A stretch of 64,000 nucleotides of DNA from Syntrophorhabdaceae bacterium PtaU1.Bin034 (GTDB lineage Bacteria > Desulfobacterota_G > Syntrophorhabdia > Syntrophorhabdales > WCHB1-27): positions 62,001 to 126,000 of the forward strand of contig MVRP01000002.1 in assembly GCA_002067405.1 (NCBI GenBank), in the 5' to 3' direction. The notes beneath the pieces were generated by a model. That model searched no databases and was not told the origin of the DNA. It worked only from the letters and a program-made list of their open reading frames with translations. Position numbers and translations under genes: made by a program. Below, in pieces: positions 12,019 to 24,809 of the stretch (position 1 is its first letter; every line of letters starts with the position of its first letter).

Positions 12019-13518
12019 TTAATTGCCGGAGATGGGGCGCGATTGCTTACGACTCATCGATGTGTCGATGTTGTATTTCTTGATGCGGCTGTAAAGGCTT
12101 GGACGGCTCACTTTAAGGAGCTTGGCTGCCTTTGAAATATTGTTTCCGCAAAGGAGAAGGATCTCCTTTACTTTCTGGGCCTCGATCTGATTGACCTCTT
12201 CTTTTAGCGGCACCACTCCGGGCTTGGCTATTCTGGGCCCGTCGAGACCCAGGTCTGCCCCGCTGATGGTGCTGCCGTCCGACATAACTATAGCCCGCCT
12301 GATCTTGTTGATCATTTGCCTCACGTTACCCGGCCAGGAATAGCTTTCTATCGCGTCTATGGCCTTTCTGGTGAAGGCTTTGGTCAGCCCCATCTCCCGC
12401 GAGAACTTGTTCAGGAAAAACTTCGCCAGCACTAATATATCCTCTCCTCGATCCTTCAGGGGCGGCAGGCTGATAGTGAATTCGTCCAGTCGATAGTAAA
12501 GGTCGCTCCGGAACTTGTTTTCCTCTATTGCAAGGGACAGATCGCAGTTCGTAGCCGCAATGACCCGCACATTGACCCTCTTGCCGCTCGTCGAGCCTAT
12601 CCTTTCAACAACCCTGTCCTGAAGGAACCTCAGCAGCTTCGACTGTAGGTTCATCGGCATTTCGCCTATCTCGTCAAGGAAGACGGTGCCTCCGTCTGCT
12701 GCTTCCATTTTCCCTTTCTTGCTCGCATAAGCTCCTGTGAACGAGCCTTTTTCATAACCGAAAAGCTCTGCTTCCAACAGGTTTTCCGGTATGGCCGCAC
12801 AGTTGATCGTGACGAAGGGTTTGGCTTTCCTGGCGCTTCTCTCGTGAATTGCGAGGGCGGTCAGCTCCTTGCCGGTGCCGCTTTCTCCCAGGATCAGCAC
12901 TGACAAATCCGTTTTCGCCACTTTTCTGATCTTGGAAAACACCTGAAGCATGCCGGGACTCGTGCCTACAAACTCCTGCATCTCCTCGCTGGCCTTTGAT
13001 TTGAGCAGGTCGATGTCGACGTAGTTTATCAGTCTCTGCAATTGCTCTACCTGCAACTCATTGACCTTTCCTTCCAACCGTTTGAAAACTGCCATCTTTT
13101 CCCGATATTCAAAATAGTCCGGCTTTTCGAATACCAGGTCCCATCCGCAGTTCTTGCACATCTTCGGCAATACGGGGTAATGTTGGCCGCAAAAAGGACA
13201 TTCGCTCCCCAGAATAAGATTGTCGACAATGTACTGCCATAGCTTCGTTCTTAACAACATGTCGACCTCGTAGAAGGACAGGGCATAACCGTCTTCCGCC
13301 TTCCTCACTATCCTGGCCGGGTGCTCCAGCAGGCCCTCCTGAGGAAGCTCATACCGTATCATTAGCCCGAATTCGAGTGCTTTAGGGTCCAGATTCTGGA
13401 GCGAGTTCCTGACGAAAGCGCCTTCAAGACCAATGTTGACGATGAGCGCATCCTTTCTTGTGGACCCCAATTCTATTTCGGCAGGGATTTGGACAGTAAG
13501 TCGAGGGCTTACACGCAA
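12019..13518 (-). CDS. PilZ-like/zinc-ribbon sigma-54 enhancer-binding activator
   Basis: A sigma-54-dependent activator with an unusual sensor end. AGGAG lies 7 nt before the TTG at 13518 (499 residues); a GTG three codons upstream is the alternative. Residues 1-90 resemble a PilZ c-di-GMP-binding domain, with RxxxR (RVSPR) and a variant second motif NIGLEG, Gly replacing the usual Ser. A zinc ribbon follows (CPFC...CKNC, about 107-124). The central AAA+ domain has GESGTGKE, the sigma-54 contact loop GSFTGA, GGTVFLDEIGEMP and the arginine-finger region. The C-terminus is a Fis-type helix-turn-helix (NISKAAKLLKVSRPSLYSRI). There is no receiver domain. It is divergent from the fibre locus, whose two promoters are consensus sigma-54, so it is the obvious candidate activator, perhaps responding to c-di-GMP. 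Confidence 0.9.
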   Translation of the reverse strand: MRVSPRLTVQIPAEIELGSTRKDALIVNIGLEGAFVRNSLQNLDPKALEFGLMIRYELPQEGLLEHPARIVRKAEDGYALSFYEVDMLLRTKLWQYIVDNLILGSECPFCGQHYPVLPKMCKNCGWDLVFEKPDYFEYREKMAVFKRLEGKVNELQVEQLQRLINYVDIDLLKSKASEEMQEFVGTSPGMLQVFSKIRKVAKTDLSVLILGESGTGKELTALAIHERSARKAKPFVTINCAAIPENLLEAELFGYEKGSFTGAYASKKGKMEAADGGTVFLDEIGEMPMNLQSKLLRFLQDRVVERIGSTSGKRVNVRVIAATNCDLSLAIEENKFRSDLYYRLDEFTISLPPLKDRGEDILVLAKFFLNKFSREMGLTKAFTRKAIDAIESYSWPGNVRQMINKIRRAIVMSDGSTISGADLGLDGPRIAKPGVVPLKEEVNQIEAQKVKEILLLCGNNISKAAKLLKVSRPSLYSRIKKYNIDTSMSRKQSRPISGN

Positions 13519-13830
13519 AGCGCACACTCCTGAACGATGATGTTGATCCTTGGGGCGTCACCATCCAGAATAGGAGTTTCAGCCAAATCTGTCAACGATT
13601 CAGAGGTCGCAAATCTAACGGGGCAACGGTCTGACAACCAAACCGAAAGGTATCTCCAACCAAAGTGTGACAGCCATTTTTGCAGTATTTTTGTGCCACT
13701 CAACCTTGACAGTTGGCTAAAGGAGAAAGAAGAAAAGTGTCTGATTGTTTGTCGAATTCCGGATGGGCGCGTGTAATCTGCAAACCGGAGGATTCATGGG
13801 AACGAGGTATCGTTTCCGATAGCAGCCTTC

Positions 13831-14253: not shown

Positions 14254-16323
14254 ATGAAACTGAAAGCTTTATCGTGGGTTCTGGCGATCAGTTTGATAAG
14301 CGCACCGTTCATGCCCGCCTGGGCCGGAACAGGAGTTCTTTCGGACGATGATCTCAGCGGATTCAGCGCGCGCGGCTTGCAGGTCATCTACAATGGCCCT
14401 GTTACTGTCGGACAGGATAACAACAACGATTCCGTCCAGCTAAAGTCCGATGCCCAGAAGTCTGCCCGCGCGCTGATGCTCACGAACACGGCAGGATCAG
14501 CAGTAAACGTCGGTCAGAACCTGGGTTCGGCCTACGAGCTGATCGGGTTTAATGGCATTTTTCAGAAGAACGATCAGTTCGCCCTCAATCAGCCCGGCGA
14601 ATCGGAGCAGTATATTTACAACAACCCGTTGGGCCTCATCGACATTACCGCATTGCAGGACAACAATAACGCTTCCGTTCAGCTTAAGGACGATGCCCAG
14701 AAATGGGTAGGTTTTGTGATGGCGAACACTGCAGGTTCCGCTGCGAACGTGGGACAGAATTTCGCCTCTGCCGGCAACCTGCTTTTCGGCAATCTTTTTG
14801 TCCAGAAGAACTATCAGACAGCCATCAATGACGCGTTGGTGTTTGATCCGGCGCAGTACGTATGGAATGGCGGTCTTGTTCTTGGCGTAGATGCATTCCA
14901 GAACAACAATAACGGGTCTACCCAAATTGTTGACACCCAGCAAGGCCACTACATAGCCGCCCTGAATACGGCCGGCTCCGCGGCGAACATGGCACAGAAT
15001 TTCGCCTACGGGAAGAACGGGGCCCTGTTGGATCTCGCCATCCAGAAAAACTGGCAGAGGGCGGAGAACAACAGCGCGGCCGACCAGCACGTGCTTAATG
15101 GATATTCCATACTTGCCGCATCTCTGTTCCAGAATAACAATAACGGCTCTGTCCAGATCGAAGAGGGCGCTCAGGATCACATTAAGGCCATGGTGGTCGC
15201 AAATACCGCTTCCTCAGCCGAGAATATCGGACAAAACATTGCTTCCCTCAAGTCGGTGGTCAGCCTGAACCTGGGAGAGCAGGTGAACCGTCAGAAGGCC
15301 GAGAGCTACACGTATATGCACCAGGAAATCGAGAACGTGGCGCTGCTCGAACTTAATGCACTCCAGGACAACAACAACGGATCCGTGCAAGTCAACTATT
15401 CTCAGGATGAACCAAAGGGCCTGACCCTTTCCAACGTGGCCAACTCCGCAGTGAACATCGGTCAAAACATCATAACAATAGGTGATCTCGTGGGTCTCGA
15501 TGTAGCAGAGCAGAAGAACGAGCAAAGGGCAACGGCCTACACAAACTCGACACAGGATATATCCAACCTTATCCTCTCTTTGTCGCTCGCTCAGGACAAT
15601 AACAATGCTTCGGTACAACTGAACGGTTCCCAGAATGAGGCAAAAGGTCTTTCTATTCTCAACTCGGCAGGTTCAGCCGTCAATGTTGGCCAGAATTTTG
15701 CTGGGATCTTCAATGCCGCCGGCATCACCCTGATAAAGCAGGTGAATGAACAGAAGGCTTTTACAGGCACGGAAACGCTGGTGAACGGCAATGGAAATAG
15801 CGGTCTCTTCCTTCAGCCGAACCAGAATAGCATCCTTGTGGCCCCGTCCGTGGCAGAGCAGAACATCGAGAGTCTTGTTGCCGTGCTTCAGGACAACAAC
15901 AACGGCTCCGTTCAACTCAACGACTCGCAGAACAGTGTAGAGGCTCTCTCCTTAGTCAACGCGGCCATCTCCGCTGTCAACGTCGGCCAGAATATCGCTT
16001 CAGTGAAAGGCCTGCTGCCTCTCGGCACAATAGTTGAGCAGAAGAATGTCCAACTGGCGGTCAACAACTCGTATACCGACCAGGATGTGGCGAACGGATT
16101 AGTCCTCGGCCAGAGAAACAACAACGGTTCAATCCAGCTGAATGAATCCCAGAGATATGTAGAAGGGCTGAACGTAGCGAACGTTGCAGGATCGGCCTTC
16201 AACGTAGGCCAGAACATCGCGAGCGTGAAGGGCATCACAGGCCTCACGGGCATCGTCCAAACCAACTACCAGGCCGCGATCAACACCGGTGCTGTTGTCA
16301 TGACGCCCGGCATTGCACACTGA
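14254..16323 (+). CDS. Large repeat-containing secreted protein, Fap-like fibre subunit, module 1
   Basis: A 689-residue exported protein. Residues 1-24 are a signal peptide; LSDDDLSGFSARG at 29-41 is the leader-like motif shared across the locus. The rest is eight repeats of about 75-95 residues. Each has a block Q(D/N)NNN(G/A)SVQL, a block NTAGSAVNVGQNIA about 20 residues on, then QKNxQ. Gln/Asn/Ser/Gly richness, regular spacing and lack of Cys suit a beta-stacked amyloid or solenoid. The GQN(I/F)A...Q(K)NxQ pattern recalls the repeats of Pseudomonas FapB/FapC, and C39-peptidase and porin neighbours strengthen that reading; a curli-like repeat is the alternative. I infer a structural surface fibre. 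It is the first gene after the sigma-54 promoter and is followed by a strong hairpin. Confidence 0.82.
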   Translation: MKLKALSWVLAISLISAPFMPAWAGTGVLSDDDLSGFSARGLQVIYNGPVTVGQDNNNDSVQLKSDAQKSARALMLTNTAGSAVNVGQNLGSAYELIGFNGIFQKNDQFALNQPGESEQYIYNNPLGLIDITALQDNNNASVQLKDDAQKWVGFVMANTAGSAANVGQNFASAGNLLFGNLFVQKNYQTAINDALVFDPAQYVWNGGLVLGVDAFQNNNNGSTQIVDTQQGHYIAALNTAGSAANMAQNFAYGKNGALLDLAIQKNWQRAENNSAADQHVLNGYSILAASLFQNNNNGSVQIEEGAQDHIKAMVVANTASSAENIGQNIASLKSVVSLNLGEQVNRQKAESYTYMHQEIENVALLELNALQDNNNGSVQVNYSQDEPKGLTLSNVANSAVNIGQNIITIGDLVGLDVAEQKNEQRATAYTNSTQDISNLILSLSLAQDNNNASVQLNGSQNEAKGLSILNSAGSAVNVGQNFAGIFNAAGITLIKQVNEQKAFTGTETLVNGNGNSGLFLQPNQNSILVAPSVAEQNIESLVAVLQDNNNGSVQLNDSQNSVEALSLVNAAISAVNVGQNIASVKGLLPLGTIVEQKNVQLAVNNSYTDQDVANGLVLGQRNNNGSIQLNESQRYVEGLNVANVAGSAFNVGQNIASVKGITGLTGIVQTNYQAAINTGAVVMTPGIAH

Positions 16324-16331
16324 GACAGATA

Positions 16332-16360
16332 AGATGGGGGCTATCCGGTCCCCCATCTTT
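16332..16360 (+). terminator. Hairpin after fibre gene, partial terminator or mRNA stabiliser
   Basis: AGATGGGGG pairs with CCCCCATCT across a 9-nt loop, followed by only two or three T. It sits 9 nt after the fibre gene stop and before the next gene, which has its own ribosome-binding site but no evident promoter. It probably lowers downstream expression relative to the abundant fibre protein. Confidence 0.7.
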
Positions 16361-16383
16361 CAACACGAAGAGGAGGGAAGCAC

Positions 16384-16746
16384 ATGAAGAGCCTTATGGC
16401 GGCAATGGTGATGATAGCAAGCCTCTCACTGATGTTCCTACTCTTTCCCTCTGACTCACCGGCAGCAGAGAAGAATTTCATAGTCTCTTTCGGAACGGGT
16501 GGAATGTCGACTTACAAGGTAGTGGACAACACCTGCTTCGTTTACACCCTTGGGTACCCCAAGGAGGAAAAACAGATCTCCCAGCTGATGAACAACGTTC
16601 TCACCGACAGCATTGGCCAGGCAAAAAAGCAGTTTGCAAAGGAAAACGACGGACTGGTCAATGTAAAGGTATTTTGGCAGTTTTTAGGGAAAGAAAGGAT
16701 CATTTACCAGGTGTGCGGCGATGTTGTTAAAAAAGGAGGTTACTAA
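16384..16746 (+). CDS. Small exported protein of fibre module 1
   Basis: Not recognised. A 120-residue protein with a signal peptide (about 1-27, ending SPAAE) and two Cys (in NTCFVYTL and YQVCGDVV) that could form a disulfide. It has no repeats and no leader-like motif, unlike its neighbours. GAGGAGGG precedes the ATG. Its stop overlaps the next start as TAATG, so the two are translationally coupled. By position it may be an accessory or chaperone of fibre export, but no homology supports that. Confidence 0.75.
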   Translation: MKSLMAAMVMIASLSLMFLLFPSDSPAAEKNFIVSFGTGGMSTYKVVDNTCFVYTLGYPKEEKQISQLMNNVLTDSIGQAKKQFAKENDGLVNVKVFWQFLGKERIIYQVCGDVVKKGGY

Positions 16747-17129
16747 TGCGTGCAATGAAAGGAGCATTGATAGTTACCCTGTTCCTGTTTCTGGCTGTCG
16801 GAGTCTCTCACGGGAAAGGCCTTGAAGTGATGGCCGACAACGAGCTGGATGGCGTTTATGCCCGGGGCTTGAACTTCATAGTGGATGCGAACAGCTTCCT
16901 CGGTGGAAACACGCTTAATTTCAGCAACGTGGGCAACGTCACTCTGCCGAACGTCAGCACCCTGAACAACTCGCTTTTTATTTCCGGTGGCGCCCAGCAA
17001 GGGTCAATGGGTGTCGTAAATGCGGTAAATTCAGCAGTTAATATGCCGATAAACATCGTGGTGCTCATCAATTCGACGGCTATGGGTGGAATCAATATAA
17101 ACAACCTGCTTTCGGCTGTTAACAAGTAA
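16746..17129 (+). CDS. Short secreted subunit with leader-like motif, module 1
   Basis: A 127-residue exported protein preceded by AAAAGGAGG. A signal peptide covers about 1-23, then comes MADNELDGVYARG (29-41). The mature part is Asn-rich and has one block GVVNAVNSAVNMPINIVVLIN, a single, more hydrophobic version of the SAVNVGQNI block in the large fibre protein. It is closely related to the 129-residue protein at 20993. By analogy with two-subunit amyloids it may be a minor or nucleating subunit (compare FapB or CsgB); this is inference. Confidence 0.78.
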   Translation: MRAMKGALIVTLFLFLAVGVSHGKGLEVMADNELDGVYARGLNFIVDANSFLGGNTLNFSNVGNVTLPNVSTLNNSLFISGGAQQGSMGVVNAVNSAVNMPINIVVLINSTAMGGININNLLSAVNK

Positions 17130-17153
17130 GAGGGAAACGCAGAGGTGCAGAGG

Positions 17154-17245
17154 TGCAGAGGGGCGGAGGAGCTGAGGTGCGGAGGAGCGGAAGGGGCATG
17201 GGGTAACGACCGGTGAACAAGCGTTTTCTCCTCCGCCCCTCTGCA
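17154..17245 (+). repeat. Long perfect inverted repeat between subunit and peptidase genes
   Basis: A 17-bp arm at 17155-17171 (GCAGAGGGGCGGAGGAG) is matched exactly by its reverse complement at 17228-17244, and a T-A pair extends it to 18 bp; the loop is 56 nt. The left arm lies in a low-complexity GAGGTGCAGAGG stretch. There is no T run, so it looks like a processing, stabilising or attenuating structure rather than a terminator. Confidence 0.75.
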
Positions 17246-17385
17246 TAGCAAGGGGCGACATAAGCCAACGGCAAAAACGCCTCTTCCTTTTGTTGAGGGG
17301 GAGTCTCTGCGGGCCGGGCACCGCCAGGCGGTCGCGTAGAGGGGGCGACGCGAGCCCCAATAATTGCAATCGAGGAGGGCACGGC

Positions 17386-18114
17386 ATGAGAGGAAAACTA
17401 TTTCTTGCAGCCCTTCCAACTGTTGCGGTGCTTCTCAGCGTCCTTTTGTCCCTCAGCTCATTTGCTGAAGAAGGCAGGGACGCTGAGATGAACATCTCGG
17501 TTGGCGGGTCATTCGCACGGATGGTCATCAAACCCAAGGTCAAGCCGGTCTCGGAGTTCAAGCATAAGAACATCGTCAAGCAGGGACTCGACTTCAGTTG
17601 TGGAGCAGCCTCAGCCGCAACGCTCCTTAACTACTATTTGGGAGAGGCGGTTACCGAGGAAAAGGTGATCAATACCATGTTCAAAGTGGGCGACGTTGAT
17701 AAGATCCTGGAACGACAGGGCTTTTCTTTGCTGGATATCAAAAAGCTGTCAGAAAACATGGGATACAAAGCCGTGGGTTACAAGACCGACCTGGAGGGGC
17801 TCATACTCCTCAATAAGCCCTGTGTGCTTCCCATCGTCCTTCGGGACTACAAACATTTCGTCATATTCAGGGGCGTCGCTCGTGGAAGGGTCTTTCTTGC
17901 TGACCCTGCCCTGGGGAACACAACCCTCTCCATCCATGAGTTCGAAAAGATGTGGTACGGCAATGTGGCGCTTGTAATCGAACCCCGGAACGGCCGGACA
18001 AACGACGGACTGAAATTGCGCGAGGAGGATTTTCAACTGGTGGCATCCGATACAATATGGAAAAGCACCATACGGACTCCTCTTCCTTTTACAAAAGGTG
18101 CCCGAGAGTTTTAG
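17386..18114 (+). CDS. Exported stand-alone C39-type cysteine peptidase (FapD-like), module 1
   Basis: A 242-residue protein; GAGGAGGG before the ATG at 17386 fixes the start within a longer frame. The N-terminus is a signal peptide or anchor (about 1-27). The C39 catalytic set is visible: Cys72 in LDFSCGAAS, His157 in RDYKHFVIF and Asp173 in LADPALGN. C39 domains normally sit on ABC exporters and cut double-glycine leaders; here there is no ABC part and the enzyme should act in the periplasm, like FapD of the Pseudomonas Fap system. Likely substrates are the neighbouring exported proteins carrying LSDxELxxVxARG. A second copy lies at 21558. Confidence 0.88.
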   Translation: MRGKLFLAALPTVAVLLSVLLSLSSFAEEGRDAEMNISVGGSFARMVIKPKVKPVSEFKHKNIVKQGLDFSCGAASAATLLNYYLGEAVTEEKVINTMFKVGDVDKILERQGFSLLDIKKLSENMGYKAVGYKTDLEGLILLNKPCVLPIVLRDYKHFVIFRGVARGRVFLADPALGNTTLSIHEFEKMWYGNVALVIEPRNGRTNDGLKLREEDFQLVASDTIWKSTIRTPLPFTKGAREF

Positions 18115-18142
18115 CAGCAATGACGGGGGAGAGTCGGCAGCA

Positions 18143-18276
18143 TGTAAAGTCCGGCACTCCATGTGTTCACATGTCTTTACAGCGACCTCCTTTACCCCGT
18201 TGAATAGCCCCAGACAGTCTGATTTTTCAGTTAGGAGCCTTTCCCCGCTTTACACGTTGTTCTCCTTCTTTTACAC
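18143..18276 (+). promoter_or_regulatory. Cluster of TTTACA boxes, candidate activator sites of module 2
   Basis: TGTAAA at 18143 (inverted), TTTACAG at 18176, TTTACAC at 18249 and TTTTACAC at 18269 lie 52-185 bp upstream of the -24 element at 18328. The first two form an inverted pair. The box, number and distance match those before module 1. Confidence 0.5.
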
Positions 18277-18327
18277 CCGTTTAGCCCTGATGCAAGATAA
18301 ATACTAGTAATATCAGTTACTTGTTGC

Positions 18328-18343
18328 TGGCATGGCCCTTGCT
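18328..18343 (+). promoter_or_regulatory. Sigma-54 (-24/-12) promoter of fibre module 2
   Basis: TGGCATGGCCCTTGCT fits the consensus, with 10 bp between GG and GC. The predicted start is near 18355, about 40 nt before the first gene of module 2. Confidence 0.87.
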
Positions 18344-18396
18344 TACCTCGATCTATAGCTTGATATGTATTCTTTGTTGACGGAGGGCCAGGCGAG

Positions 18397-18717
18397 ATGA
18401 AAAGAATAGCCACAAATATCCGCGTGCTTCCCTGCCTGCTTTCGTGCCTTCTTCTGCTATGTGCCCCGGCCCTTTTTGCGGAGACTATCGTTTCCTGTCC
18501 GGACGAGCCGGAAGTTCGCGTCGATTCCCGGAGCCATTTCATTCGCCTTCTGACATGCGAGGAGATGGAGGCGGTCTTTGCCCGGGGATGGACCTACAAC
18601 GGGCAATACTTCACCCTGGCGACATGGGATTATGCCGGAAAAATAATCCTGTGGGACGAAGCGGGATCAGCGGGCAGGGCGAGGTGTTTCAACAATAAAG
18701 TAGGCATCAAAAACTAA
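18397..18717 (+). CDS. Small exported protein with leader-like motif, first gene of module 2
   Basis: A 106-residue protein with a signal peptide (about 1-28, ending ALFAE), then a spacer and LTCEEMEAVFARG at 52-64, followed by a 42-residue tail rich in aromatics (WTYNGQYFTLATWDYAG). Three Cys remain outside the signal peptide. It lacks the fibre repeat. The motif followed by a short tail resembles the layout of a C39-processed leader peptide and cargo. It is the first gene downstream of the second sigma-54 promoter. Function unknown. Confidence 0.72.
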   Translation: MKRIATNIRVLPCLLSCLLLLCAPALFAETIVSCPDEPEVRVDSRSHFIRLLTCEEMEAVFARGWTYNGQYFTLATWDYAGKIILWDEAGSAGRARCFNNKVGIKN

Positions 18718-18801
18718 AAAGGCGGGAGGTGATGTCACCGAAACAAGTGTATCGTCCGTAAAAACCGATCACGAATACTTATCTAACCAAGGAGGGAGTT
18801 T

Positions 18802-20886
18802 ATGAAACGGGATTTTCTAAGGTTTCTTCTTGCGCTGAGCCTCATTGCCGCTCCGGTGTCTCCGGCATTTGCCGGAACTGATACCCTTTCCGACAACGAA
18901 CTGGCATCCGTGAATGCCAAAGGATTTGCAGTCGAGGCCTCGAACAACAACGCATCCGTCCAGCTCTACGAAAGCCAGAACGGGATCAAAGGGGTCAGTG
19001 TGGTCAATATCGCGGGCTCCGCTGCAAACGTGGGACAGAACCTGACGAGCGTCAGTGAAACCGTGGGGATCGCACTGCTAACGCAGAAGAACGAACAGTA
19101 TTCGGACAATACAGGCGGCGGGTTTTTCCAGACGACTTATAACACGGACTGGCCGGGGGATGCCGATAATTATTACAACAACAATGCTTCCGTGCAGGGC
19201 ATGGGGTCGGGCTCGGAAACGGGCATAAGGGCGCTCAGCCTGGCCAACGTTGCCGGTTCTGCCTTCAACGTGGGCCAGAATATAGCGAAGGTGGAGGTCA
19301 ACTACTTTGTTGACATGCTTCAAAGTAACGAACAGGAGGCTGTCAACGATTTTCTCGCTGTTCAGACCGTGGTGAATGAGGTTGGAGCACTGACATATCA
19401 GTCGAACAGCAACGCTACAGCGCAGCTTATTGATTCACAGAATTGGGCGAAAGGCCTGAGCATTGCCAACGTAGCGGCTTCCGCACCCAACGTCGGCCAG
19501 AATGTAGCCAATGTCAAAGGCGAGTATTTCGTCGGTGTCGGCCAGATCAGCATTCAGGAGGCCGAGGCGGTCATTGAACCGATCCAGGTTGTGGCCAACG
19601 ATAATTGGGTCCGGTACCAGACGAACAATAATGCTTCTGCGCAAGGCGTAGATTCCCAAAACTGGGCGCAAGCGGTCAGTCTGCTCAACGCGGCTGCCTC
19701 TACCGTCAACGTCGGCCAGAATATAGCGAATGTCAAGGCAGACAAGTTTGCGTACATCGGCCAGGCGAACGTCCAGTTTACTGAAAATGATATCGAAGCT
19801 ACCCAGCTTGTGGTCAACGGCGACGCCGACGCCAAGTACCAGGCGAACAACAACGCTTCCGTTCGGTTCGTAGACTCTCAGAATGGGGCGAAGGCAGTGA
19901 GCATTGCCAATTTGGCCGCGTCTGCAGTGAACATAGGGCAGAACATTGCGAATGTTAAAGTGGAGGAGAACTTCGAAGTCGAGCAGTTCAATATCCAGGC
20001 AGCCGTAGCTGACATTGAAACAACACAGGTTGTTTTCAACGCCGATGACGCCAAGCACCAGGCGAACAACAACGCTTCCGTTCAGCTCGTAGGCTCCCAG
20101 AACGAAGCAAGGGCGTTGAGCATTGCCAACCTGGCCGCCTCTGCGGCGAACATCGGCCAGAACATCGCAAAGGTTAAAGCAGAAGAAGATTTCGGTGTCG
20201 AGCAGTTCAATATCCAGGCAGCCGTAGCCGAGATTGAACCAACACAGGTTGTGAAGAGTGACGAGGTAAAGTACCAGAGGAACAACAGCGCCTCGGTCGC
20301 GCTCGTAGGCTCCCAGAACGAAGCAAGGGCGTTGAGCATCGCCAACCTGGCCGCCTCTGCGGCGAACATCGGCCAGAACATCGCAAAGGTTGAAGCGGAG
20401 GAAGATTTCGGTGTCGAGCAGGTCAACGTTCAGGCAGTGGTGGCCGATATTGAAATCAGCCAGACTGTGGCGAATGCGGACACGGTGAAGCACCAGGCGA
20501 ATAACAAAGGGACCGTGGCCCTGAGAGGCTCTCAGAATTGGGCATCGGCTCTCGCGATCATTAATGCAGCTGCTTCAGCGGTTAACATCGGACAAAATAT
20601 AGCCGGCATTAGCGGACAGCGGGATATCGACGTCTTTCAGACAAACAACCAGACGGCCAGCGTCGCAACCTTTCCGAACCAGACCTTGGAAAACGACGGA
20701 ACGGTCATATACCAGGCTAACAACGGTACGTCTGTCCGGCTTATCGACTCTCAGTCCCATGCATCCGGCCTGGTCATTGCCAATGTGGCAGGATCAGGTG
20801 TGAACATCGGCCAGAATATTACTTCTCTGCGTGGACTTCTGGGAGGAAGCGTGAGTGTGGTCAATACCCAGACAGCTTACAGATAA
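18802..20886 (+). CDS. Large repeat-containing secreted protein, Fap-like fibre subunit, module 2
   Basis: A 694-residue paralogue of the protein at 14254. A signal peptide (1-24) is followed by LSDNELASVNAKG (29-41) and nine repeats of about 72 residues. Each repeat has NNNASVQL, SQN, the core IANLAASAANIGQNIA, and a short variable link with Val-Gln. The repeats are more regular than in module 1 and more acidic, and two adjacent ones are almost identical in DNA. AAGGAGGGAG precedes the ATG. As in module 1, a stable hairpin follows the stop. A surface amyloid fibre is the inferred role; two different major subunits could make two fibres or a mixed one. Confidence 0.82.
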   Translation: MKRDFLRFLLALSLIAAPVSPAFAGTDTLSDNELASVNAKGFAVEASNNNASVQLYESQNGIKGVSVVNIAGSAANVGQNLTSVSETVGIALLTQKNEQYSDNTGGGFFQTTYNTDWPGDADNYYNNNASVQGMGSGSETGIRALSLANVAGSAFNVGQNIAKVEVNYFVDMLQSNEQEAVNDFLAVQTVVNEVGALTYQSNSNATAQLIDSQNWAKGLSIANVAASAPNVGQNVANVKGEYFVGVGQISIQEAEAVIEPIQVVANDNWVRYQTNNNASAQGVDSQNWAQAVSLLNAAASTVNVGQNIANVKADKFAYIGQANVQFTENDIEATQLVVNGDADAKYQANNNASVRFVDSQNGAKAVSIANLAASAVNIGQNIANVKVEENFEVEQFNIQAAVADIETTQVVFNADDAKHQANNNASVQLVGSQNEARALSIANLAASAANIGQNIAKVKAEEDFGVEQFNIQAAVAEIEPTQVVKSDEVKYQRNNSASVALVGSQNEARALSIANLAASAANIGQNIAKVEAEEDFGVEQVNVQAVVADIEISQTVANADTVKHQANNKGTVALRGSQNWASALAIINAAASAVNIGQNIAGISGQRDIDVFQTNNQTASVATFPNQTLENDGTVIYQANNGTSVRLIDSQSHASGLVIANVAGSGVNIGQNITSLRGLLGGSVSVVNTQTAYR
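20089..20520 (+). repeat. Tandem 216-bp near-identical repeat units
   Basis: Units at 20089-20304 and 20305-20520 both begin GTAGGCTCCCAGAACGAAGC. The first roughly 90 bases differ at one position, with divergence rising towards the unit end. This indicates a recent duplication or gene conversion of one 72-residue repeat, and a site for repeat-number change. Confidence 0.85.
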
Positions 20887-20896
20887 ACAAGACGGA

Positions 20897-20921
20897 GAGG
20901 GGGCGTTACGACGCCCCCCTC
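20897..20921 (+). terminator. GC-rich hairpin after second fibre gene
   Basis: GAGGGGGCGT pairs with ACGCCCCCCTC over a 4-nt loop, with one bulged C, 11 nt after the fibre stop. No T run follows (CAATTC), so it may stabilise the fibre mRNA or partly terminate. Its position parallels the hairpin at 16332. Confidence 0.65.
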
Positions 20922-20992
20922 AATTCTCGATTGTACGGATGGCTCGATGGATAGAACAGTCAACAGTCTTTACAGACTTAAAGGAGGATGCG

Positions 20993-21382
20993 ATGCGCGC
21001 AGTGAAAGGCGTTGGGATTTGTTTTGTCTTGCTTGTTTTGCTATCCGCAGGACCTTCCTTTGGAAGAGACCTTCAACAAATGACGGATAGCGAGCTTGAC
21101 GGAGTGCACGCGAGAGGTTTGACGTTCCTTTTCGACAGCAGCACATTGCTGAACGGCGGCAGCATCAGCCCTTACAATATCAATTTTAACGGAACGAACA
21201 ACCTGAGTCTCAGGAACTCCATAATGCTTTCGGGAAATGTGCAGCAGAGCGGGCTTGGAGTGGTCAATGCCGTCAACTCAACCGTCAATATGCCCATTAA
21301 CCTTATTGTCCTTATCAATTCGCAAATATCCGGAGGAATTAACCTGAAAAACGTTCTCTCCGGGAGCAACCGTTTGTGGTAG
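20993..21382 (+). CDS. Short secreted subunit with leader-like motif, module 2
   Basis: AAGGAGG places the start at 20993 inside a longer frame; a nearer ATG at 20988 is out of frame. The 129-residue product parallels the 127-residue protein at 16746 throughout: MRAVKG start, signal peptide, MTDSELDGVHARG at 30-42, an Asn/Ser-rich middle and GVVNAVNSTVNMPINLIVLIN near the end. It is probably a minor or nucleating subunit of the fibre. A CTTTACAG box with a small palindrome (AGTCT...AGACT) lies just upstream at 20966-20979. Confidence 0.78.
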   Translation: MRAVKGVGICFVLLVLLSAGPSFGRDLQQMTDSELDGVHARGLTFLFDSSTLLNGGSISPYNINFNGTNNLSLRNSIMLSGNVQQSGLGVVNAVNSTVNMPINLIVLINSQISGGINLKNVLSGSNRLW

Positions 21383-21557
21383 CAAAGCAGGCCGGCTGTC
21401 ACGCACCCGCTCCACAGCAATGAGGCGAAAGACGAGACAGGTTGCCGATTCTTTCGTAGCAGCGAAGGGAGACAACGTTCCCCCTTCGCTGCACAAAAGA
21501 AAGGTCGAAAGGATGCATTGCTGCAAGAAATACCTGTATTCACAAAAGGAGAATTCC

Positions 21558-22331
21558 ATGAGGTTGAAGTTTTTGAGCTTACAGGTTGCATTGGATCCCA
21601 CCCGGGTAATGAGCGTTATGGTTCTTGTTTTTGTCGGCGTTCTCGTCAGCGGCGTTTCTGCTGCGGAACTCCCGGCTGTCGATAACAGGCCGGCGGTGAT
21701 GAGCATTTCCGTTGGCGGGGGAGGTCCCCTTGGCAGGATGATCATAAAGCCGAGAGTGAAACCGCTTTCGTTTTTCAAGGAGAGGCATGTGGTAAAGCAA
21801 GCGCTTGATTTCAGCTGCGGCGCCGCGTCAACTGCGACCATCTTCAAGTTTTATCTGGGGGAGCAGGTGACGGAGAAGAAAGTAATAGAGGACATGTTCA
21901 AGGCAGGCAACGTAAATAAGATCATTGAGAGACAGGGCTTTTCTCTTCTCGATATCAAAAAGTTCGCTGAATTTATGGGCTATCGAGCTGTCGGGTACAA
22001 GACGGATATCGAAGGTCTTGTCTTGCTTAACAAGCCCTCGATTGTAGCCATCATGCTTCGTGATTACAAGCACTTTGTTGTATTTAGAGGGGCTGAAGGG
22101 GGAAAGGTGTTCCTGGCTGATCCGGCCCTTGGCAACACGACCCTCACCGCCCGGGAATTTGAGCAAATGTGGTATGGTCATATTGCGCTGGTAATAGAAC
22201 CGCGCGACAAGCAGGCTAGGTCTGACCTGAAAATCGAACAAGAGGACAAGTTGCTGATAACGCCCACGGACCTGAGAAGATCGCTCTATTACAACGCAAT
22301 TCTCTTCGGCAAAAGCCCTAAGGAGTTTTGA
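21558..22331 (+). CDS. Exported stand-alone C39-type cysteine peptidase (FapD-like), module 2
   Basis: AAAAGGAG before the ATG at 21558 fixes the start; 257 residues. A hydrophobic stretch at about 18-35 acts as signal peptide or anchor. Catalytic residues are Cys87 (LDFSCGAAS), His172 (RDYKHFVVF) and Asp188 (LADPALGN). The pre-catalytic segment MSISVGG...GRMIIKPRVKP is shared with the module 1 peptidase, so the pair arose by duplication. Each module carrying its own peptidase suggests paired substrate preference. Confidence 0.88.
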   Translation: MRLKFLSLQVALDPTRVMSVMVLVFVGVLVSGVSAAELPAVDNRPAVMSISVGGGGPLGRMIIKPRVKPLSFFKERHVVKQALDFSCGAASTATIFKFYLGEQVTEKKVIEDMFKAGNVNKIIERQGFSLLDIKKFAEFMGYRAVGYKTDIEGLVLLNKPSIVAIMLRDYKHFVVFRGAEGGKVFLADPALGNTTLTAREFEQMWYGHIALVIEPRDKQARSDLKIEQEDKLLITPTDLRRSLYYNAILFGKSPKEF

Positions 22332-22467: not shown

Positions 22468-23481
22468 ATGAAGAGAAAAGCCCTTATGGGTGCCGCTCTA
22501 GCACTGTTGTTGACCCTAGTTCCCGAGATCGTTTTTTCGGAGGCCAAGACAGAAATGGAGAGACAAAAAGAAGCGGCTGCACTCATTGCCGCATCAAAAC
22601 AATATGTCCTGCTGAAGCGCAATCAATGGGAAATCGAGAACAGTCTTTCCTATTCCTACTATTCAGCCAACCAGATTTATCTTCAGAGCTTTGCCATACT
22701 CGATCCCGTATTTCTCACCCTTGGCGAATTCGGAATAGAGTCGGCCAGAAGGCATATCTTCACCTACAACCTGGCGAGCAGGTACGGCATAACCAGGAAC
22801 CTGCAGATGGATGTCAATTTTCCCTTCGTCTACCGGCATGATTTGATCACGATCGTAGGCTCCAGTTCCTCGGATTCCGAAAGGACGCTCAACAAAGCCG
22901 CCTTGGGTGACATTTCTTTCGGTTTAAGCTATCAGCCCATTGCAGAGACGGCGAGCGCCCCGGGGCTGGTCCTCAATCTCGCCTTCAAATCCGAATCCGG
23001 CAAAAGCCCTTTTAATATTGATCCGAAGAAGGAGCTTCCGACAGGTACCGGATATCCATCGATAAAAGGGGGAGTAAATCTTATAAAGAGCATTGATCCC
23101 GTGGTGGTGTTCGGCGGTGTTTCCTATGCGCTGAATATGTCAAAGGGCGGCATAAACCAGACAGTCACCTCAACGGAGGGGACCACCGGAATCCTGCGGA
23201 GTGTGGATCCCGGCGATACACTGAGTTTCAACATGGGTCTTGCCTATGCGCTCTCATACAAATTCTCCCTCAATTTCCAATTTCAGCAGGATTACACCTT
23301 CAGCACGAAAGCCAACGGAAGGACGGCTCCCAACACGGAGCTTAACTCGGCAATGATGAGAATAGGCGCAGGCTGGAGCCTGACCCCCAGAACGTCCCTC
23401 AATGTAAGTGTTGCAACAGGGCTGACCACTGACTCGCCTGACTTCACCGTTGAGATCCGGATCCCGATACTTGTTTTTTAA
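22468..23481 (+). CDS. Outer-membrane beta-barrel protein, FapF-like candidate
   Basis: A 337-residue exported protein. A signal peptide (1-24) precedes a short charged helix (TEMERQKEAAALIAASKQY) and then a run of alternating amphipathic strands with aromatic girdles, ending in a C-terminal strand IRIPILVF whose final Phe is the usual outer-membrane insertion signal. About 12 strands seem possible. FapF of the Fap system is also a 12-stranded porin with an N-terminal helical part that exports the amyloid subunits, so this is the candidate secretion pore. A generic aromatic-compound porin is the alternative. It has its own sigma-70-type promoter. Confidence 0.75.
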   Translation: MKRKALMGAALALLLTLVPEIVFSEAKTEMERQKEAAALIAASKQYVLLKRNQWEIENSLSYSYYSANQIYLQSFAILDPVFLTLGEFGIESARRHIFTYNLASRYGITRNLQMDVNFPFVYRHDLITIVGSSSSDSERTLNKAALGDISFGLSYQPIAETASAPGLVLNLAFKSESGKSPFNIDPKKELPTGTGYPSIKGGVNLIKSIDPVVVFGGVSYALNMSKGGINQTVTSTEGTTGILRSVDPGDTLSFNMGLAYALSYKFSLNFQFQQDYTFSTKANGRTAPNTELNSAMMRIGAGWSLTPRTSLNVSVATGLTTDSPDFTVEIRIPILVF

Positions 23482-23836: not shown

Positions 23837-24167
23837 CGCTCCCGCTGCCGGGCTTTTAGACGCTGCTAACGGAGAAATGACTGTCTTACCTGGCAAGACC
23901 TTTGACTCACAATATGAGACATCGATCTTACATGGTGAGACATTTGGTCTGGCTGGCTTCGTTGGCATTTTCGCTGATTTTAGCGTTGCGTGCCGGTAAA
24001 ACGGGACAAAGAACGCATCTTGTCACTGCACTCGGCTATGGCACGATTATTGAAAAGATTTGGGACAAGCAGCCGCTACTATTAATAATATTGCGCATCT
24101 AATTCCATGCACTTTCCAGAACGACGGTAGGCACAGACACGACATCGTAAACAAAGGGAGGCAGACG
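23837..24167 (+). other. Intergenic region before LuxR-type regulator
   Basis: 331 nt with no convincing gene. A 56-codon open frame from 23932 starts with a signal-peptide-like run (MVRHLVWLASLAFSLILAL) but has no ribosome-binding site. TGGCACGATTATTGAA at 24039 resembles a sigma-54 element but lacks the invariant GC of the -12 box. Confidence 0.45.
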
Positions 24168-24809
24168 ATGGCAATAAAGCTTGCGATAGCGTCGAGCAGT
24201 CGTCTTTTCTGCGAAGGTATCAGAAAGCTGATGGAAAGTGATTCGGAGATTACGATTGTGGGGGACACTGGTCAGACAGGGAGCATAGAGGACCTTATGG
24301 AACTGGACAGCGACATCATATTGATAGATCATCGGGCCCTCTTCGGCATTTCAAGGCACGCCTTGACGGAGAACGGCCATACCGCCAAGTTCATCCTTAT
24401 CGAAAGCAGGATTGAGCCATCGCTGATCGATGGTGAAATTATCGAGCTTATCTCCAAGGGTGTGATGGCCGGCATCCTGTCGGCCGATGCCGACGGAGAA
24501 CTTTTGAAAAAGGCCGTGAAAGTTGTCGCTTCGGGAGAACTGTGGCTCGGTCATCTTACCATCAAGAATATCCTCAGCCAGGCAATGTTTATTAAAAAGA
24601 GTATCACCAGGCAGGAATCTGAAATAGCCGGACTGATCTTGAGGGGCTACTGCAACAAAGAAATCGCCCGTGAGCTAAAGATAACCGAGGCAACGGTAAA
24701 ATCCCACTGCAACAGACTGTTCAAAAAATTCAACGTCTCAGGAAGACTTCAACTCGGTTTGAAGCTGAAAGGGCTTTACGAGGACAAGAAATTTCTGCCG
24801 GCGAACTGA
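24168..24809 (+). CDS. LuxR/NarL-type DNA-binding regulator with degenerate receiver
   Basis: AAGGGAGG precedes the ATG at 24168; 213 residues. The N-terminal 120 residues follow a receiver fold (IKLAIASSS...DIILIDH) with a candidate phospho-Asp in the LIDH segment, but the usual acidic pocket after beta-1 is replaced by Ser (ASSS), so phosphorylation is doubtful. Residues about 145-205 are a LuxR helix-turn-helix (GYCNKEIARELKITEATVKS). In architecture it recalls CsgD, the curli regulator with a non-canonical receiver. It closes the fibre locus on the same strand and may regulate it, which is inference. Confidence 0.85.
   Translation: MAIKLAIASSSRLFCEGIRKLMESDSEITIVGDTGQTGSIEDLMELDSDIILIDHRALFGISRHALTENGHTAKFILIESRIEPSLIDGEIIELISKGVMAGILSADADGELLKKAVKVVASGELWLGHLTIKNILSQAMFIKKSITRQESEIAGLILRGYCNKEIARELKITEATVKSHCNRLFKKFNVSGRLQLGLKLKGLYEDKKFLPAN

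Follow-up and report, generated by a model that had tools for sequence, protein, structure and literature searches.

Three kinds of described systems come closest to the one considered here: the C39 peptidases LahT, ComA and PCAT1, the Fap system of Pseudomonas with its C39 peptidase FapD, and the putative pilus system FilA-FilB-FilC with DUF6160. According to the parts of the reports available to us, the leader residues -4, -7 and -12 occupy hydrophobic pockets of LahT and a charge there blocks or impairs cutting, changes of the leader Glu at -8 are tolerated, and Gly-Gly, Gly-Ala or Gly-Ser are the residues named at the cut of C39 enzymes of ATP-binding cassette (ABC) transporters (PMC6363468, PMC10885120). 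For Fap, within the sections consulted, a C38A mutant of FapD abolishes secretion of FapC, complete N-terminal processing is reported for FapE, the linker of FapF may be processed too, and the Fap proteins are said to lack canonical C39 sequences, the target of FapD being stated as unclear (PMC5557850). The substrate and recognition sequence of FapD were reported as open in 2017 and 2018 (PMC5557850, PMC6173800), and an excerpt of a further source says that FapD modifies FapC (PMC10638192), against the mass spectrometry reading in PMC5557850. Here we analyse a stretch of 64,000 nucleotides (64 kb, "the window") of contig MVRP01000002.1 from Syntrophorhabdaceae bacterium PtaU1.Bin034, in which five exported proteins encoded beside two exported C39 peptidases share the N-terminal motif LSDxELxxVxARG. 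Sequence comparisons make it quite probable that this motif acts as a C39-type leader in the periplasm, downstream of Sec, and is cut between Ala-Arg or Ala-Lys and the following Gly.

A scan of the window in all six frames for the strict motif yielded exactly five matches, all on the plus strand (Table 1) and all in the open reading frames (ORFs) for which the initial annotation had reported it. They begin at residues 29, 29, 52, 29 and 30 of these ORFs in positional order, letters and ATG starts having been rechecked. A slightly tighter pattern gave five matches against none in 100 residue shuffles of the six frames, and a looser one, with any residue at position 12, gave six, the sixth lying on the minus strand with no signal peptide by eye. 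Signal peptides were called throughout with a simple rule on hydrophobicity and by inspection, no dedicated predictor being used. The same scan bears out the expected absence of the motif from the 120-residue protein, the peptidases and the barrel protein of the cluster. The carriers are exported proteins that probably form fibres: two repeat proteins, two small subunits, and a 106-residue protein unrelated to these four.

The hydrophobic positions of the window motif are 1, 6 and 9. If the cut precedes the Gly, hydrophobic residues stand at -12, -7 and -4 in all five copies, and they reach these places only if positions 12 and 13 flank the cut, which then separates A-R or A-K from G. We do not file the motif as a canonical double-glycine leader, because Gly-Gly, Gly-Ala or Gly-Ser is absent from -2/-1, where the window has Ala-Arg (four copies) or Ala-Lys (one). 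It would nevertheless work like such a leader, with A-R or A-K standing in the place of Gly-Gly.

Both window peptidases belong to the Peptidase C39 family (PF03412; 75 bits for peptidase A and 68.1 bits for peptidase B, cut-off 22). The best NCBIfam match of both is FilB, with 166.5 and 154 bits below its cut-off of 475; the FapD scores of 127.3 and 120.9 bits are likewise below the cut-off of 330. The enzymes are stand-alone proteins of 242 and 257 residues with a signal-like N terminus and are thus not peptidase-containing ABC transporters. The predicted model of peptidase B resembles the peptidase domains of ComA, LahT and PCAT1, and its active-site residues are Gln83, Cys89, His174 and Asp190 (numbering of the frame at 21552-22328 of the window). 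The active site is intact among the relatives as well: the catalytic Cys, His, Asp and Gln are invariant in all 55 aligned peptidases (55 of 82, both window copies included), and in a separate set of 30 the Gln and Cys are invariant and the His and Asp kept in at least 90%. The barrel scores below the family cut-offs, too (FapF 158.6 bits, cut-off 700; FilC 146.3 bits, cut-off 630). A canonical cytosolic bacteriocin reading was set aside because the N termini look Sec-type and none of ten scanned cluster proteins is an ABC transporter.

In the mechanism that we propose, the subunits would cross from the cytosol by Sec, and signal peptidase would take the signal and leave a short propeptide ending in the motif. 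The leader helix, with its hydrophobic residues at -12, -7 and -4 and the acid at -8, would then dock on the Sec-exported C39 peptidase, which would cut before the Gly, and the trimmed subunit would exit via the FapF/FilC-like barrel and assemble outside. Alternatively, the motif might stay uncut and serve for docking or routing, with either the barrel or the peptidase, acting as a chaperone, as its binding partner. Protease-inactive C39-like domains are named substrate chaperones in some type I systems in the part of PMC5557850 consulted, and a barrel gene resembling that of the window adjoins the peptidase, by eye, in eight of the first 25 (L001-L025) of the 80 relative loci treated below. 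An uncut tag is at odds with the four invariant active-site residues, with the loss of secretion in the FapD C38A mutant and with the apparent processing of FapE (the same excerpt of PMC5557850), and we consider it unlikely.

The proposal of a cleaved leader extends to other genomes. The relative loci are the best 80 of at least 588 confirmed C39 matches; in these and the window, 71 of 521 signal-bearing ORFs have the core motif close enough to the signal to count, chance matches included, with endings that include AQG, AKG, GQA, AQE, GGF and GRF. Under a canonical-leader consensus, the weights of which were fixed after the core-motif scan of the 80 loci was known, a score of at least 5 of 6 is reached by 40 of 273 signal-bearing ORFs close to the peptidase, compared with none of 239 internal stretches, 20 of 5460 shuffled sequences and, among ORFs that are distant or on the opposite strand, 8 of 213; seven of these eight are plus-strand leaders in delta-type loci. 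The 67 near matches at the 4.4 level have Gly or Ala at position 11 in 65 cases and, at position 12, Q (24), G (14), R (10), E (6), S (5), A (4), K (2), L (1) or T (1); G, A or F are commonest at position 13. Beside exported C39 peptidases elsewhere, the motif was found in several phyla, in the form of a C39 leader after a Sec-type signal. The same tag stands beside the same enzymes in many bacteria, and its reach is wider than first claimed.

The residue at the predicted -1 is relaxed: R and K occur in the window, and Q, E, S and G in relatives as well. In the literature searched, as far as its text was available, Arg, Lys or Gln directly before the cut is not reported for known C39 enzymes. 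Leaders of one locus share the residue at -1 in 18 of 35 pairs (11.3 expected, p 0.015), and in 11 of the 20 pairs with unlike mature parts (6.5 expected, p 0.015), kinship being uncontrolled in both; the residue at -2 gives no significant result (p 0.16 for all pairs, 0.55 for unlike mature parts). This test used 63 leaders, of which a few look like chance matches. Some peptidase columns distinguish Gly-type from Arg/Lys-type partners; because the two groups are also different lineages, nothing is concluded from them. In one genome (G066), FilB is matched at 55-60 bits by seven stand-alone C39 sequences on several contigs.

The ORF just after the C39 gene carries a leader under a strict pattern in 42 of the 55 loci L026-L080 (36 distinct strings), against none of the 25 loci L001-L025 and 9 of 717 among the other ORFs of the loci. 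Since the scan tried every start codon and frame after the peptidase, L001-L025 are the matched control, the 717 other ORFs having been tested once each. The pattern demands L or M at position 6, G at 11, G, R or K at 12 and F, Y, I or L at 13, so that tallies at these positions are not independent, and both this pattern and the weights of a second leader score were set after the FapE matches were known. The 42 leaders end in GG (25), GR (9) or GK (8), followed by F (30), Y (10), L (1) or I (1); at -12 stands V, L, I, M or, in four, Ala; -4 holds L, M or I in 31, Ala in six and Q, E or H in five; and -8 holds E, D or Q in 26. Among the 20 of 80 loci that are leaderless in the strict scan are contigs ending near the peptidase and several loci whose leaders score below threshold or lie further off (L009, L017, L020, L021, L023, L066, L075).

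Four proteins from this position were compared with NCBIfam: two are FapE (335.5 and 315.5 bits, cut-off 250), one gave a weak match of 17 bits and one none. In two Pseudomonas operons FapE reaches the full leader score of 6/6, and FapB, FapC and FapF reach at most 3.7; the score of 4.5 in FapD falls on an internal stretch and those of 4.4 and 3.9 in FapA on an internal site, and no unassigned ORF exceeds 4.7 (FapA, FapB, FapE and FapF of L071 are named by NCBIfam, the other Fap proteins by position and likeness). The predicted FapE cut, at residue 40, fits the reported processing and does not alone explain the whole gap. A search of titles and abstracts, newer Fap papers being covered by listing alone, found no leader given for FapE, FapD or DUF6160. 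The tag on FapE makes the cut target of FapD, an enzyme that had no known target, testable. An internal leader-like stretch, LSDGDFAQVTSG followed by Ser or a close version of it, lies mid-protein in FapA (L071:7781-8230, NCBIfam match) and two similar proteins (L059:7780-8319, L080:1128-1652); it might bind FapD as a false substrate, and the published mass spectrometry, in the section seen, reports no FapA processing (PMC5557850).

DUF6160 (PF19657) holds the same signal-plus-leader core: four of ten leader-motif carriers tested match it at E < 0.01, two of them above the cut-off, and the window proteins scanned against it gave no match at E up to 1. Conservation of the motif in genomes without any exported C39 peptidase had been named as a finding that would speak against a leader. 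With DUF6160 as a stand-in for the motif, 37 of 39 DUF6160 genomes also have a FilB-like C39 peptidase. These come from 293 genomes of one order, in which DUF6160 occurs in 39, FilB-like C39 (at least 161 bits) in 38 and both in 37 (Fisher p 2e-43, uncorrected for kinship in a kinship-biased sample); the counts are by genome rows and not by single matches, and the threshold was placed, once the scores were known, in the gap from 161 down to 125 bits. Among 143 genomes of one class, DUF6160 is present in four (three above cut-off) and a FilB-like C39 of more than 200 bits in the same four, including G001, which is the centre of the order sample and, like G027, belongs to both samples. Any FilB match at E 0.001 is found in 65 of the 293 and 20 of the 143 genomes. 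In G219 a FilB-like C39 peptidase and a leader-bearing protein with a weaker DUF6160 score are on the same contig. The two DUF6160 genomes without such a match are G164 and G218. G164 has two clear leaders, and no FilB-like C39 was found in its assembly of 1.7 Mb. G218 has a weak DUF6160 match, in which the leader scan found none; the only C39 matches of these two genomes are in open frames of 503, 751 and 721 residues.

One genome, G158, has 15 DUF6160 matches (L083, L087, L091, L095, L097, L099, L101-L109) on ten contigs and one C39 match. The proteins are small and exported-looking, with the same signal and leader and unlike mature parts. In 14 scored N termini (L083 gave no scored window, though its leader is visible), -12 is M or L in 14, -7 is L or M in 14, -4 is V or I in 14, -2 is G in 14, -1 is Q in 13 and +1 is G in ten; from +2 on, each column holds 0.8 to 1.7 bits, which is background for 14 sequences. 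The windows were picked by positions -12, -11, -8, -7, -4 and -2 (positions 1, 2, 5, 6, 9 and 11), and -1, +1 and later positions were not used. Because +1 is also conserved, the cut could not be placed from the G158 profile alone; it is fixed by the spacing together with the FapE endings.

These endings bear on the register in which the motif was first read. The initial annotation took it for the leader of the two local C39 peptidases, a reading well supported by its form, its position after a Sec-type signal, its absence from the named non-substrates and its association with C39 genes, and held that RG or KG replaces Gly-Gly, with a cut after ARG or AKG. The Gly at position 13 is indeed invariant in the five window copies and present in 10 of 14 in G158, and Gly is the classical -1 residue. 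A cut after it would, however, shift the hydrophobic residues to -13, -8 and -5, away from the -12, -7 and -4 of LahT, and the literal Gly-Gly of relatives aligns with positions 11-12, the A-R columns, the next column being F, Y, G, A or E. A cut after this Gly is improbable, slightly more so than an uncut tag. With the register shifted by one residue, the mature ends expected are GL, GL, GW, GF and GL, in place of L, W or F.

It is very improbable that the motif is a structural helix of the mature proteins, or reflects shared N-terminal ancestry alone, unrelated to the peptidase: some carriers are paralogues, the mature parts being similar in 15 of 35 pairs from one locus, but the other 20 pairs and the 14 scored G158 proteins share the tag although their mature parts showed no shared sequence in these comparisons, and tag and C39 genes occur together in several phyla.

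The cleaved leader may be part of a general periplasmic route, in which a Sec signal plus a C39 leader would mark many unrelated, genome-scattered proteins for one FapD/FilB-type peptidase and release through a barrel; amyloid and pilus-like systems would be special cases, and the S1 site would have drifted from Gly to Gln, Arg or Lys. We regard this extension as evenly balanced between right and wrong. A parallel is offered by PEP-CTERM tags, which mark proteins for exosortases. The tag would name FapE, and an exact bond in it, as the candidate for FapD, which is needed for biofilm amyloid secretion. It would also give a simple search rule for substrates of the periplasmic C39 peptidase class, the unexplained DUF6160 included, and it suggests that a leader familiar from peptide export out of the cytosol has found a second use downstream of Sec.

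Table 1. Features of the cluster in window coordinates, with predicted cuts
Feature	Position	Strand	Basis or remark
Exported N/Q-rich repeat protein, 689 aa, presumed fibre subunit	14254..16323	+	repeats and fibre role by eye
Leader LSDDDLSGFSAR	14338..14373	+	proposed cut 14373/14374, before Gly; predicted register
Exported-looking 120-aa protein, motif-free	16384..16746	+	ORF and motif scan
Small exported subunit, 127 aa	16746..17129	+	51% identical to 20993 protein
Leader MADNELDGVYAR	16830..16865	+	proposed cut 16865/16866
Sec-exported C39 peptidase A, FilB/FapD-like, 242 aa from this ATG	17386..18114	+	PF03412, catalytic residues kept
Small exported protein, 106 aa, with ILWDE stretch; predicted mature peptide 43 residues	18397..18717	+	
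Leader LTCEEMEAVFAR	18550..18585	+	proposed cut 18585/18586
Exported N/Q-rich repeat protein, 694 aa; like 14254 protein by eye	18802..20886	+	
Leader LSDNELASVNAK	18886..18921	+	proposed cut 18921/18922
Small exported subunit, 129 aa	20993..21382	+	8 homologues besides itself; 7 aligned with both window copies
Leader MTDSELDGVHAR	21080..21115	+	proposed cut 21115/21116
Sec-exported C39 peptidase B, 257 aa from this ATG	21558..22331	+	PF03412
Outer-membrane barrel, FapF/FilC-like, motif-free	22468..23481	+	NCBIfam

By eye, positions 14254-22331 form two tandem modules of repeat protein, small subunit and peptidase, followed by a single barrel. The flanks of the cluster hold a sigma-54 activator-like gene, by eye, at 12019-13527 on the minus strand, and a LuxR-type regulator gene (PF00196) at 24060-24809 on the plus strand; in L038 a gene with a start similar to that of the sigma-54 activator-like gene lies upstream of the peptidase. 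The 689-residue repeat protein is matched by none of the Pfam and NCBIfam profiles at E up to 1. A search of ORFs below 220 residues for stretches like the ILWDE stretch of the 106-residue protein had seven matches: the window protein, two unrelated proteins and four small, unnamed ones, each with its own leader, ending in GK before G (L043:4828-5244), GK before Y (L044:7026-7430), GQ before G (L052:7572-7913) and GK before G (L080:653-1114), compared with AR before G in the window. This family-less substrate candidate thus has leader-bearing look-alikes elsewhere. Viral contigs scanned for the small subunit held no relative, and its predicted structure is poor (mean pLDDT 43.6) and was not used.

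Compared with LahT, ComA and PCAT1, the window system has a homologous peptidase with the same active site, and its leader is alike in the hydrophobic residues at -12, -7 and -4, the acid at -8 and the small residue at -2. It differs in that the leader follows a Sec-type signal, that the peptidase is stand-alone and exported, and that -1 is R or K (in relatives also Q, E, S or G); in contrast to the substrates of ABC-transporter C39 enzymes, the candidates are large repeat proteins and small subunits, not bacteriocins. With DUF6160 the window proteins share the signal-plus-leader core and no profile match. In the putative pilus system FilA-FilB-FilC, FilB is the best match of the window peptidases, though below its cut-off. 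With Pseudomonas Fap the window shares an exported C39 peptidase, a FapF-like barrel, repeat-rich secreted proteins and, in FapE, the same kind of leader; unlike Fap, it has five leader-bearing proteins and two peptidases, its scanned proteins match no Fap subunit family, and its similarity to FapD and FapF stays below the cut-offs.
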